A stretch of DNA of 64,000 bases from Ferrovum sp. PN-J185 (GTDB lineage: Bacteria > Pseudomonadota > Gammaproteobacteria > Burkholderiales > Ferrovaceae). The stretch's first letter is position 1, and every line of letters begins with the position of its first letter. The translations under genes were made by a program, and so were the position numbers. Under the pieces are notes generated by a model that was not told the DNA's origin, made no database searches, and saw nothing but the letters and a program-made list of their open reading frames with translations. The DNA lies in the NCBI RefSeq assembly GCF_001581925.1, contig NZ_LQZA01000002.1:62001-126000 (forward strand), written 5' to 3'. Shown here piece by piece: positions 48,737-52,012 of the stretch.

Positions 48737-49801
48737 ATGCTACAAAATGATACTTTTTTAAGAGCTCTTCTGCGTCAACCGACGGATTACACGCCCTTAT
48801 GGATCATGCGTCAGGCTGGACGTTATTTGCCTGAATACAACGCCACACGAGCACGAGCAGGAAGCTTTCTTGATTTATGTAAGAACCCTGATCTTGCCAC
48901 TGAGGTGACCCTTCAGCCCTTAGCGCGCTTTCCCCTTGATGCGGCTATATTATTTTCAGATATCTTAACAATCCCTGATGCCATGGGATTGGGTTTATAT
49001 TTTGCTGAAGGTGAAGGACCAAAACTAGAAAGACCGCTACGTGATGAGTGGGAAATTAGAAACCTCAGCGCTCCTGATCCTGACACCCATTTAAATTATG
49101 TGATGAGTGCGGTAAGTCAAATTCGTCGCTCTCTAGCAGGAACTGTTCCTTTGATTGGTTTCTCCGGTAGCCCTTTTACCCTTGCCTGCTACATGGTGGA
49201 AGGCGGCGGCTCAGAAGACTTCCGGCATATTAAAGGTATGCTCTATCGTCGCCCTGATCTACTCCATCAAATTCTTGAAGTGACCACACAATCTGTGATC
49301 CTTTATTTGAATGCACAAATCGCAGCAGGCGCGCAAGCGGTAATGGTATTTGATACGTGGGGTGGTACACTTTCTACTCCTGCTTATGAAGAGTTTTCTT
49401 TACACTACCTTCGTCGTATTGCAGCGGAATTAACGAAACATGCCGATGGCCGACGCGTACCTAGTATTGTCTTCACCAAAGGTGGTGGATTATGGCTTGA
49501 GCGCATCGCTCAAGCAGGGTTTGATGCGGTGGGATTGGATTGGACGATTGAACTGTCTGAAGCCAAAAGACGCATTGGTGATCAAGTGGCACTACAAGGC
49601 AATATGGATCCTTCAGTATTGTTTGGCTCACCTCAAGCAATTGAAAATGAAGTGGATAGAATCCTCACCTCTTTTGGTGCAAGTCCTGGTCATGTGTTCA
49701 ATTTAGGGCATGGGATTTCTCGATTTACCCCTCCTGAACATGTGGCGATATTGGTTGATGCGGTTCATAACGTAAGTAGACGCCTACGTACAAACAATTA
49801 G
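48737..49801 (+). CDS. hemE: Uroporphyrinogen decarboxylase
   Basis: HemE removes four carboxyls from uroporphyrinogen III to form coproporphyrinogen III. The 354-residue TIM barrel begins with '[24 protein letters not shown]' (in parts), whose Arg residues bind substrate, and includes '[14 protein letters not shown]' with the catalytic Asp and '[13 protein letters not shown]'. It has the ribosome-binding site AAGGGA. It is the last gene of gltB-gltD-hemE. The following 228-bp gap contains DnaA boxes. Confidence 0.97.
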
Positions 49802-49823
49802 GAATTTAACTTTTTTGTTTGTG

Positions 49824-50006
49824 TTATGCACAATAAGATAGCAGTGTTAATATTTCTTTAAAAATCAAAAAGCTATCCAAGAAGAAAATATAACCAATTG
49901 ATTTTTAAAACTATTTTTTTATTTAAAAAAGCCTTGACGAATTAAAAAAGTACAAAACTTTAGATCTAGCAAGGCTTTTATTAAGATATTCACAAAGTTA
50001 TCCACA
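49824..50006 (+). promoter_or_regulatory. DnaA-box cluster in the hemE-priA gap
   Basis: Perfect DnaA boxes TTATGCACA (49824-49832) and TTATCCACA (49998-50006) match TTATNCACA. A one-mismatch box, ATATTCACA (49986-49994), starts 12 bp before the last one on the same strand. The DNA between 49833 and 49985 is extremely AT-rich, with runs of T and A. A role in DnaA control of priA, DnaA titration or replication initiation is inferred. Confidence 0.6.
49927..49979. terminator. Large inverted repeat before priA
   Basis: AAAAGCCTTG (49927-49936) and CAAGGCTTTT (49970-49979) are perfect 10-bp arms around a 33-base AT-rich loop. On the + strand TTTTATT follows, so it may terminate the hemE transcript; by symmetry it could also work on the other strand. 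Confidence 0.55.
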
Positions 50007-50029
50007 GGCAGCCAATATTCTCTTAAGCC

Positions 50030-52012
50030 ATGATTTTCATTGAAGTTGCCCTTGATCTACCCCTCAATACACTGTTTGATTATCAGTGTGATGAGGCAAC
50101 GCCTGATGATATTGGCCGACGCGTTAAAGTCCCTTTTGGTCGCGATGAAAAAGTAGGGGTGATCCTTAATGTTAAAGATCACAGTACGCTTCCCTTAGAT
50201 AAAATTAAAAAAGCCACAACACTCTGGCGTGATGTTCCTCCTCTGTCAGAGGAGATACTGCGTTTGCTACATTTTACCAGTCACTACTATCAGCATCCCC
50301 TGGGGCCTGTTGTATTACACGCCCTACCCCCTGCTTTAAAAAAAACCAACGACTGGCAAGCGCCCAAAAAAAGAAGTAAAGCCATTAACGTTGCAGTAAC
50401 TAGTGCGCCACAACTGAATCTAGAGCAGCGTCATGCTTGTGATGAAATTAATCAGCATGATGATGAGTTTCGTATCTGGTTATTGCAAGGGATTACTGGT
50501 AGCGGTAAAACTGAAGTGTATTTAGAGCTGGTTAAGCAAACCCTAGGACGAGGAAAACAAGTTCTGATACTGGTTCCTGAAATTAATCTGACGCCATTAA
50601 TTGAACAGCGTTTTCAAGCACGTTTTCCTGCAACGGGAATGGTCAGTTTACATAGTGGCGTTGGCGAAAAAGAACGTGCTCAACGCTGGATTGATGTGGC
50701 CTCAGGAAAAATTCAAATTGTGTTAGGTACACGCCTTGCTATTTTTGCACCACTTGACCATCTTGGCCTCATCATTATTGATGAAGAACATGACAGCTCC
50801 TATAAACAAGCTGAAGGGATGCGCTATCATGCTAGAGACTTGGCCATTATGCGCGGACAATACAATGCTATTCCTGTGGTGTTGGGGTCTGCTACTCCTT
50901 CATTAGAGAGTTGGTGGAATGCCAAACAAGGTCGATACCAACTTATTAAACTGACTGAACGCGCTCACCAGGGTGCCACACTCCCTGACATTCAGTTAAT
51001 AAAAGCCAATCTCAAACATGACTCACCCACACTCAGTCTTGAGATCATTCATGCTATTGAAGAACGACTGACAAAAGGACAGCAATCTTTAATATTTATT
51101 AATCGACGTGGCTTTGCTCCAGTATTAATGTGTAATCAGTGCCAGTGGCTTGCCACCTGCCCTGATTGTCAAACACGACTCGTGGTCCATCGCCGACAAC
51201 AGCGACTGCGCTGCCACCATTGTAATTACCAACGCCCCATTGATCACCACTGTCGTCAATGTCATAGCGAAGACCTGACGACTTTAGGTGAGGGCACACA
51301 AAAAATAGAAGAAAGCCTTCAAGAATTGTGGCCCAAGGCACGAATTTTACGTATTGACAGCGATAGCCTGCAGAGCAAAAGTTGGGCTACACAAATCCAA
51401 GATATTCACGCCGGTGAGGTAGATATTTTAGTTGGCACACAAATTCTAATTAAGGGCCACGACTTTCCAAAGCTCACTCTAGTTGCTGCTATTAATGTGG
51501 ATAGCGCTTTATACAGCAGTGATTTTAGAGCAAGTGAGCGCTTATTTACACAACTATTGCAAGCAGCCGGAAGAGCAGGTCGAGGTAGTGACAAAGGGCA
51601 AGTATTAATTGAAACAGCTTTCCCCCAACATCCTTTATTCGAGGCGTTGATTGACCATGATTATCAGCGTTTTGCCGATAACGAGCTTGAAGAAAGACGC
51701 TTATTTGGTTTTCCGCCCTTTTGCTATCAAGCGCTATTAAGAGGTTCGGCAACGGAATTGTCACCCCTACAACAGTTTATGCGCGAGGCCAGAGAGGCGC
51801 TAAAGAGACTATCTTATGAAGATATCACCCTCTTTGATGTGGTGGCCCCTACTCTCCACAAAATTGGTAATAAATACCGCTTACAATTACTGCTTCAATG
51901 TCATTCACGACCACTCTTACAACAGGCCTTATCTCAATGGAGTGATTATTTGTTTAGCTATGCCCCTCATTCTATCAATTGGGTTATTGACGTCGATCCG
52001 ATTGATTGTTGA
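50030..52012 (+). CDS. priA: Primosomal protein N' (replication restart helicase)
   Basis: PriA reloads the replisome at stalled forks with a 3'-5' helicase. The 660-residue protein has an N-terminal fork-binding domain (1-105), Walker A 'GITGSGKTE' at about 154-162, the DEAH-type box 'DEEHDSSYK', and a zinc module with eight Cys ('CNQCQWLATCPDC', 'CHHCNYQRP', 'CRQC'). Motif VI lies in 'QAAGRAGRG'. It is somewhat shorter than E. coli PriA (732). The ribosome-binding site is weak. DnaA boxes lie just upstream. Confidence 0.95.
   Translation: MIFIEVALDLPLNTLFDYQCDEATPDDIGRRVKVPFGRDEKVGVILNVKDHSTLPLDKIKKATTLWRDVPPLSEEILRLLHFTSHYYQHPLGPVVLHALPPALKKTNDWQAPKKRSKAINVAVTSAPQLNLEQRHACDEINQHDDEFRIWLLQGITGSGKTEVYLELVKQTLGRGKQVLILVPEINLTPLIEQRFQARFPATGMVSLHSGVGEKERAQRWIDVASGKIQIVLGTRLAIFAPLDHLGLIIIDEEHDSSYKQAEGMRYHARDLAIMRGQYNAIPVVLGSATPSLESWWNAKQGRYQLIKLTERAHQGATLPDIQLIKANLKHDSPTLSLEIIHAIEERLTKGQQSLIFINRRGFAPVLMCNQCQWLATCPDCQTRLVVHRRQQRLRCHHCNYQRPIDHHCRQCHSEDLTTLGEGTQKIEESLQELWPKARILRIDSDSLQSKSWATQIQDIHAGEVDILVGTQILIKGHDFPKLTLVAAINVDSALYSSDFRASERLFTQLLQAAGRAGRGSDKGQVLIETAFPQHPLFEALIDHDYQRFADNELEERRLFGFPPFCYQALLRGSATELSPLQQFMREAREALKRLSYEDITLFDVVAPTLHKIGNKYRLQLLLQCHSRPLLQQALSQWSDYLFSYAPHSINWVIDVDPIDC

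Follow-up and report, generated by a model that had tools for sequence, protein, structure and literature searches.

The hemE–priA gap and its predicted binding sites

The locus described here is the intergenic gap between hemE and priA in a 64,000-nucleotide stretch of the Ferrovum sp. PN-J185 genome (hereafter, the window). On one strand and in this order, the gap carries TTATGCACA (box A), 58 bp, TAACCAATTGATT (predicted IHF site), 82 bp, and ATATTCACA-aag-TTATCCACA (boxes C1 and C2), for a total span of 183 bp (Table 1). A first-pass annotation had already noticed two perfect DnaA boxes here, along with a one-mismatch box 12 bp from the last and on the same strand, and all three were confirmed. 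The central site, a perfect match to the IHF consensus TAAnnnnTTGATW as quoted in PMC10950094, had been overlooked.

Table 1 Features of the hemE–priA locus, in window coordinates
Feature	Position	Strand	Description
hemE, uroporphyrinogen decarboxylase	48737..49801	+	Upstream neighbor; TIGR01464, 427 bits vs cut-off 303
hemE–priA intergenic gap	49802..50029	.	228 bp, carries the element; from ORF list and sequence
DnaA box A, TTATGCACA	49824..49832	+	Mean column identity 0.97 (24 family loci); stands to the IHF site as box 2 does in datA
Predicted IHF site, TAACCAATTGATT	49891..49903	+	Consensus TAAnnnnTTGATW; mean column identity 0.80
Inverted repeat (hairpin) within the IHF–C1 arm	49922..49984	+	Possible hemE terminator
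DnaA box C1, ATATTCACA	49986..49994	+	One mismatch; mean column identity 0.92; place of datA box 3 and DARS box III
DnaA box C2, TTATCCACA	49998..50006	+	Mean column identity 1.00; same strand, 12 bp after C1; place of DARS box II
Place of an inverted third box (DARS box I)	50012..50020	.	Absent in the window (6 mismatches); occupied in about a third of 159 scored elements
priA, replication restart helicase	50030..52012	+	Downstream neighbor; TIGR00595, 587 bits vs cut-off 230

The inverted repeat reported in the same first pass is likewise real, with arms (49922–49936 and 49970–49984) that are 87% complementary around a 33-nt loop and a folding energy of −14.7 kcal/mol (z −2.8). By eye, the hairpin can also be seen in three other aligned members of the genus. 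In the portion of PMC10950094 available, E. coli datA is placed where tRNA read-through transcription takes place, and by this parallel the hairpin is possibly a hemE terminator.

Conservation, breadth, and spacing of the element

Over the whole window, the total number of DnaA boxes is not above chance (8 TTWTNCACA observed vs 9.9 expected), and boxes with ≤1 mismatch to TTATNCACA number 66 against 81 expected. Perfect TTATNCACA boxes occur 10 times in 204 kb of the contig, and two lie within 228 bp of each other at two places only, namely the hemE–priA gap and the DNA just downstream of dnaA. Such a pair is also rare by chance: among 200,000 Markov gaps of equal composition, 7 had two perfect boxes and none had the full element pattern. 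Conservation is nonetheless stronger evidence for the boxes than this clustering.

All 41 genomes searched for HemE had a match; 30 loci were taken, and a genome with a partial HemE (G012) was left out. After orientation, priA lay downstream of hemE in 28 of the 30 loci (not in L041 and L045), and one hemE–priA gap (L044) measured 25 bp and held no boxes. For the window's family, perfect TTWTNCACA boxes stood at both gap ends in 23 of 24 loci, the second box of the remaining locus (L040) having one mismatch. The common family layout is box A (mostly TTATGCACA), 57–59 bp, the IHF site, 82–85 bp, and two boxes 12 bp apart; in one locus (L025), the A–IHF gap is longer by about ten bp, i.e., one helical turn. 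Under a single scoring rule, box A, the IHF site, and C1–C2 are kept in 23 of the 24 family hemE–priA loci, which confirms their conservation upstream of priA, and the locus that fails (L029) does so through a weak IHF site. Columns that are ≥90% identical in an alignment of the 24 family gaps make up 29 of the 40 site columns vs 2 of the 188 others. Gap GC ranges from 0.26 to 0.55 across the family, so the AT-richness pointed out in the first pass holds for the window's own gap (26% GC) but is not conserved with the element.

Outside the family, the region behind hemE was examined in 16 further genomes of the order, each from a different family. Nine of the 16 had box A, the IHF site, and C1–C2, with hemE 4 kb away in G033; a tenth genome (L042) had a degenerate version, and in the other six no element was found behind hemE within the 1.5–2 kb read. 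In one hemE–priA gap (L249, G031:C1:5093000-5096500), two complete composite elements stand in tandem, and another locus (L119) has two elements 2.6 kb apart.

A search with an exact pattern, admitting an A–IHF gap of 52–72 bp, matched 61 of the 399 genomes examined in the order, from 26 of 159 genera; the reversed pattern, run as a control, was absent among the matches listed. A looser pattern run over the class, which admitted A–IHF gaps of 48–66 bp only and hence the short spacing class, matched eight genomes (the window's among them) in a draw of 369, and its reversed control matched one; apart from the window's own, the nine places it found lie outside the source loci of the 160 elements described below. 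A scan of named genomes (gaps of 50–74 bp admitted) returned at least 119 stretches with the pattern, and the 80 matches listed include Pseudomonas, Rhodoferax, Polynucleobacter, Variovorax, Burkholderia, Methylomonas, and Methylotenera, as well as Ectothiorhodospiraceae MAGs and one Neisseriaceae MAG.

Across 160 distinct elements, the A–IHF gap is 56–62 bp in 83, 68–72 bp in 76, and 78 bp in one, the last being a second reading of one locus. No element of the 160 has a gap of 63–67 bp, even though every search behind the set admitted these values (52–72 or wider), and the IHF–C1 gap is 82–88 bp in 159 of 160. The A–IHF classes are thus steps of one helical turn, which is what a looped DnaA–IHF–DnaA complex would demand.

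Genomic neighbors of the element

The first-pass annotation had put forward DnaA control of priA as one possible role of the boxes. As the main reading this finds no support in the wider sample, since the element also stands where neither priA nor hemE was found nearby. At 110 loci (L047–L156), the window's PriA was matched in 69 and its HemE in 61; of the 41 loci with no PriA match, some stop short at a contig end, and the search could have missed a divergent PriA. Other nearest genes were bcsQ-like, cofC-like, mtnA, glnS, rimO, thrB, hemW, recD, folP, and a uvrD-like helicase. These names come from 20 flanking proteins at 12 loci, with some matches below the curated cut-off and some proteins matchless, and one of the 12 loci (L186) does have priA. 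In E. coli, the priA–rpmE gap showed no IHF match and, as to DnaA boxes, a one-mismatch box only.

Comparison with E. coli datA

The datA locus of E. coli MG1655 reads TTGTAAACA-gag-TTATCCACA, 56 bp, TAACCTATTGATA, 84 bp, TTATTCACA-agc-TGTGGATGA, where the assignment of these stretches to numbered boxes is inferred from review text. Its succession of box 2, 56 bp, IHF site, 84 bp, and box 3 resembles A, 58 bp, IHF site, 82 bp, and C1 of the window in order, strand, and IHF direction, and in both loci a further box follows 12 bp after box 3 or C1. As in datA, the IHF site of the window is flanked by two same-direction boxes at fixed spacing; with regard to the high affinity of the datA boxes, C1 has one mismatch and its partner C2 none. 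According to the parts of the sources available, datA needs boxes 2, 3, and 7 plus the IHF site, with a minimal size of 183 bp, also given as 262 and 187 bp (PMC5742627, PMC10380432), and the direction and spacing of its sites are called optimised in PMC5742627 and important in PMC10380432.

The two loci also differ. E. coli datA, the DDAH locus, lies downstream of glyVXY, unlike the window element in its hemE–priA gap, and has an inverted box 4 where the window element has C2. Its essential low-affinity box 7 stands 12 bp before box 2, whereas the tandem partner in the window is on the other arm; a counterpart 12 bp before A is absent in the window (5 mismatches), and a box with ≤2 mismatches at this place was seen in 7 of 160 elements (0–3 at other offsets) and is therefore not general. 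We also built a sequence-only profile (R1) from 52 elements, with family relatives included and the window excluded. It scored the window element at 57 bits, E. coli datA at 18.7 and 10.2 bits (two halves), and DARS2 at 18.6 and 18.0 bits, and by this measure datA appears to have no advantage over DARS2. A plain assignment to datA was weakened accordingly, as E. coli datA was recovered in halves only and DARS2 equaled it, and this led to a comparison with the DARS core. Profile matches at E 0.01 occurred in 249 of 250 genomes and were set aside as a measure of prevalence, because four partial matches of ~16 bits in the window's genome alone reach that level.

Comparison with DARS and the locus upstream of xseA

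The core of E. coli DARS1 and DARS2 corresponds to C1, 3 bp, C2, 5 bp, and an inverted box. C1 and C2 share the direction and the 12-bp interval of DARS boxes III and II, and make up two thirds of a DARS core on sequence grounds, with box I, head-to-head with box II after 5 bp, being the part that the window lacks. DARS2, in the rppH–mutH gap, further resembles the window element in having an IHF-like site (one mismatch to the consensus) upstream of these same-strand boxes, but at 74 bp from the core rather than 82, with a head-to-head third box, and with no box A found. DARS1, in the bioD–uvrB gap, shares the C1–C2 pair but has neither IHF site nor box A at the places scanned. The available text of PMC10380432 calls the head-to-head box functionally essential for DARS, and DARS-like sequences conserved in many proteobacteria. 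PMC5742627 states that E. coli-proximal beta- or gamma-proteobacteria have kept the DARS2 spacing, and the DARS2 paper (PMC4245941) refers to gammaproteobacterial relatives of E. coli.

The head-to-head third box was absent in all 23 family hemE–priA elements scored (4–8 mismatches; the weak-site locus L029 was left out). Among 159 elements overall, an inverted box at exactly +5 was found with ≤1 mismatch in 37 and with two mismatches in 16 more (53/159), compared with zero or one element at each of nine other offsets. It was present (≤2 mismatches) in 15 of 90 elements beside hemE or priA vs 38 of 69 elsewhere, and its absence at hemE–priA is not confined to the window's family. In the less biased sample of 16 genomes from 16 other families, six of the nine genomes with an element behind hemE had the third box.

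The second-best R1 match in the window's genome lies upstream of xseA (contig C3:260117-260238; L239, L268) and reads CTGTTCACA-aac-TTATCCACA-gaatt-TGTGGACAA, i.e., a DARS three-box core. The flanking xseA and exbB-like genes were named by eye from translations; exbB stands on the far side of this gap in the window's genome and in 8 of 9 xseA-bearing loci elsewhere. The three-box core was found in all 23 family genomes whose upstream gap was reached (26 searched, 24 matched; G020 gave a C-terminal fragment only, fragments L284 and L291 were negative, and second fragments L293–L295 were not counted). An IHF site at 80–90 bp accompanied five of these cores and box A one, whose IHF match was off-register at 99 bp. 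The gap upstream of xseA is likely the DARS1 counterpart in the window's genome. When both loci were read in seven genomes of other families (G037, G091, G172, G208, G224, G237, and G267), all 14 loci had the third box (≤2 mismatches) and an IHF site, and 13 had box A; several of these sites have one mismatch, and the third-box rate is biased as the genomes came from top R1 matches.

Position relative to the replication origin

Two expectations of the first-pass annotation, that the main origin lies to the right and that the gap is a regulatory DnaA locus rather than this origin, agree with the data. The gene dnaA is at contig C2:133738-135060, about 22 kb right of the hemE–priA gap, and the cumulative GC-skew minimum, computed over contig C2:2001-206000 (204 of 1889 kb), falls beside it in bin 130001–134000. 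DnaA boxes were found on both sides of dnaA, with two one-mismatch boxes in the gap upstream, and two perfect boxes plus one one-mismatch box in the gap that follows dnaA, up to the next ORF (presumably dnaN). The DNA beside dnaA is likely the true origin of this genome. In the two stretches flanking dnaA (L010:9061-9272 and L010:7405-7737), DnaA boxes occur together with AT-rich DNA. Across window positions of about 24000–52000 (contig C2:86–114 kb), GC skew is mostly positive although this DNA lies left of the skew minimum; the stretch partly overlaps the + strand genes gltBD-hemE-priA and may reflect gene direction or an old inversion.

In Caulobacter, the origin lies beside hemE, a parallel drawn in the first pass that appears coincidental here. 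The oriC of gammaproteobacteria combines DnaA boxes with an IHF site, a likeness that extends to the window element, which differs in having no conserved AT-rich region, few boxes, and a place off the skew minimum. This composition of gammaproteobacterial oriC is also given in the available parts of PMC5742627 and PMC10380432. Nearness to the origin, expected of a datA locus, varies. Eight genomes have an element next to priA and carry dnaA on that contig as well; element and dnaA are 22–92 kb apart in five (the window's genome, G001, G055, G237, and, if circular, G031) and >1 Mb apart in three (G028, G267, and G224). A Pseudomonas "second origin" was reportedly described by Yee and Smith. It was considered as a precedent and dropped; one review, in the part available, mentions two P. 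aeruginosa autonomously replicating elements, with no position given there.

Proposed function and alternative explanations

We propose that the gap is a cis-acting, datA-like, IHF-looped control locus that would inactivate DnaA, a reading to which we assign a probability of about 0.52 from its sequence features. Because counterparts of datA box 7 and DARS box I were looked for and are missing, the element is neither datA nor DARS in the strict sense; it would work most like datA. For the window element, we propose the following course of binding, looping, and ATP hydrolysis. IHF would bind the central site, and the resulting bend would let DnaA bound at box A meet DnaA bound at the C1–C2 pair; the looped ATP-DnaA assembly would then promote ATP hydrolysis and also hold DnaA. 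Once the origin 22 kb away, beside dnaA, has fired, ATP-DnaA would thereby be lowered and further initiation restrained. The window's genome encodes DnaA, IHF alpha (ihfA), IHF beta (ihfB), and Hda, along with an HU-like protein scoring below the HU cut-off, and its DnaA contains SRFGWGL and VRELEGAL, which by eye are the motifs of Arg285/Leu290 and Arg334. The R1 scores, the missing box 7, the varying distance to dnaA, the few matches in the class (short spacing only), and the six other families with no element found behind hemE count against this reading.

Several other explanations would account for part of these observations. Chance boxes within an AT-rich gap would fit the whole-window box count, which is at chance level, but the sites and their spacing are kept across genera and 61 of the 399 genomes searched carry the pattern, with its reverse absent among the matches listed, which makes chance vanishingly improbable. 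A secondary or relocated replication origin, which the first pass had also considered, would explain the coincidence of DnaA boxes, IHF site, and AT-rich stretch in the window's genus; with the skew minimum beside dnaA, DnaA boxes flanking dnaA on both sides, few boxes in the gap, and an AT-richness that is not conserved, a main or secondary origin at hemE–priA was rejected as highly improbable. An operator through which DnaA with IHF would control priA transcription agrees with the retention of hemE–priA synteny in many genomes and with the short distance from the end of C2 to the priA start (23 bp here, 17–115 bp in the 24 family loci). That distance is nevertheless variable while the internal spacing is fixed, other genera have the same layout next to unrelated genes, it also occurs upstream of xseA, and no sigma-70-like promoter was found within the gap itself, so that we regard an operator as unlikely.

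Two alternatives remain. In a DARS2-type locus, IHF would help a DnaA assembly on C1–C2 to release ADP and regenerate ATP-DnaA. In favor of this role, C1 and C2 at 3 bp, followed by a head-to-head third box at exactly +5, reproduce the order seen in E. coli DARS1 and DARS2; this box is present (≤2 mismatches) in 53 of 159 elements and in six of nine other-family genomes with an element behind hemE, and DARS2 has an IHF-like site 74 bp before its core. The head-to-head box, essential according to the available text of PMC10380432, is however missing from the window and from all 23 scored family loci, and the window element keeps box A, which E. coli DARS2 was not seen to have; we thus consider this role rather unlikely. 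Titration, raised in the first pass, came close in that datA was first described as a DnaA-titrating locus and does titrate DnaA too (PMC5835720, in the part available), and the boxes are high-affinity. A passive sink in which IHF just organises the DNA would not need the IHF site and the helical phasing, however, and is quite unlikely as a complete explanation.

Under the preferred datA-like reading, the history of the element can also be considered. It may descend from a composite of box A, IHF site, and DARS-type three-box core, which related families have at two places, hemE–priA and upstream of xseA. Within the window's family, the hemE–priA copy has no head-to-head third box and keeps the IHF-loop sites; upstream of xseA, the three-box core is retained, mostly without these sites. 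By sequence comparison, this looks like a composite split in two, with the IHF loop kept at hemE–priA and the head-to-head core upstream of xseA; the direction of change, from composite to split, is read from the pattern of the two loci in this family vs the others. datA and DARS act on DnaA in opposite directions. Tentatively, and at well under even odds, datA and DARS sites could descend from one composite element that the ancestor of a large betaproteobacterial order carried at two places, the family copies having specialised by opposite losses into inactivating (datA-like) and reactivating (DARS1-like) loci.

Implications for replication control

In E. coli, the control of DnaA by noncoding IHF/DnaA loci has been worked out in detail. 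We found no literature report of a datA-like locus at hemE–priA or upstream of xseA, in searches of open-access papers that were blunted by "datA" also matching "data". If such elements recur at set places in Burkholderiales-type and other proteobacteria, DDAH/DARS control would become testable far beyond enterics. If true, spacing rules would be readable from many natural variants, one-turn steps included, and the rise of two opposite switches from a single element would be a testable evolutionary question. For its hosts, the element may help to stop chromosome copying from starting too often.
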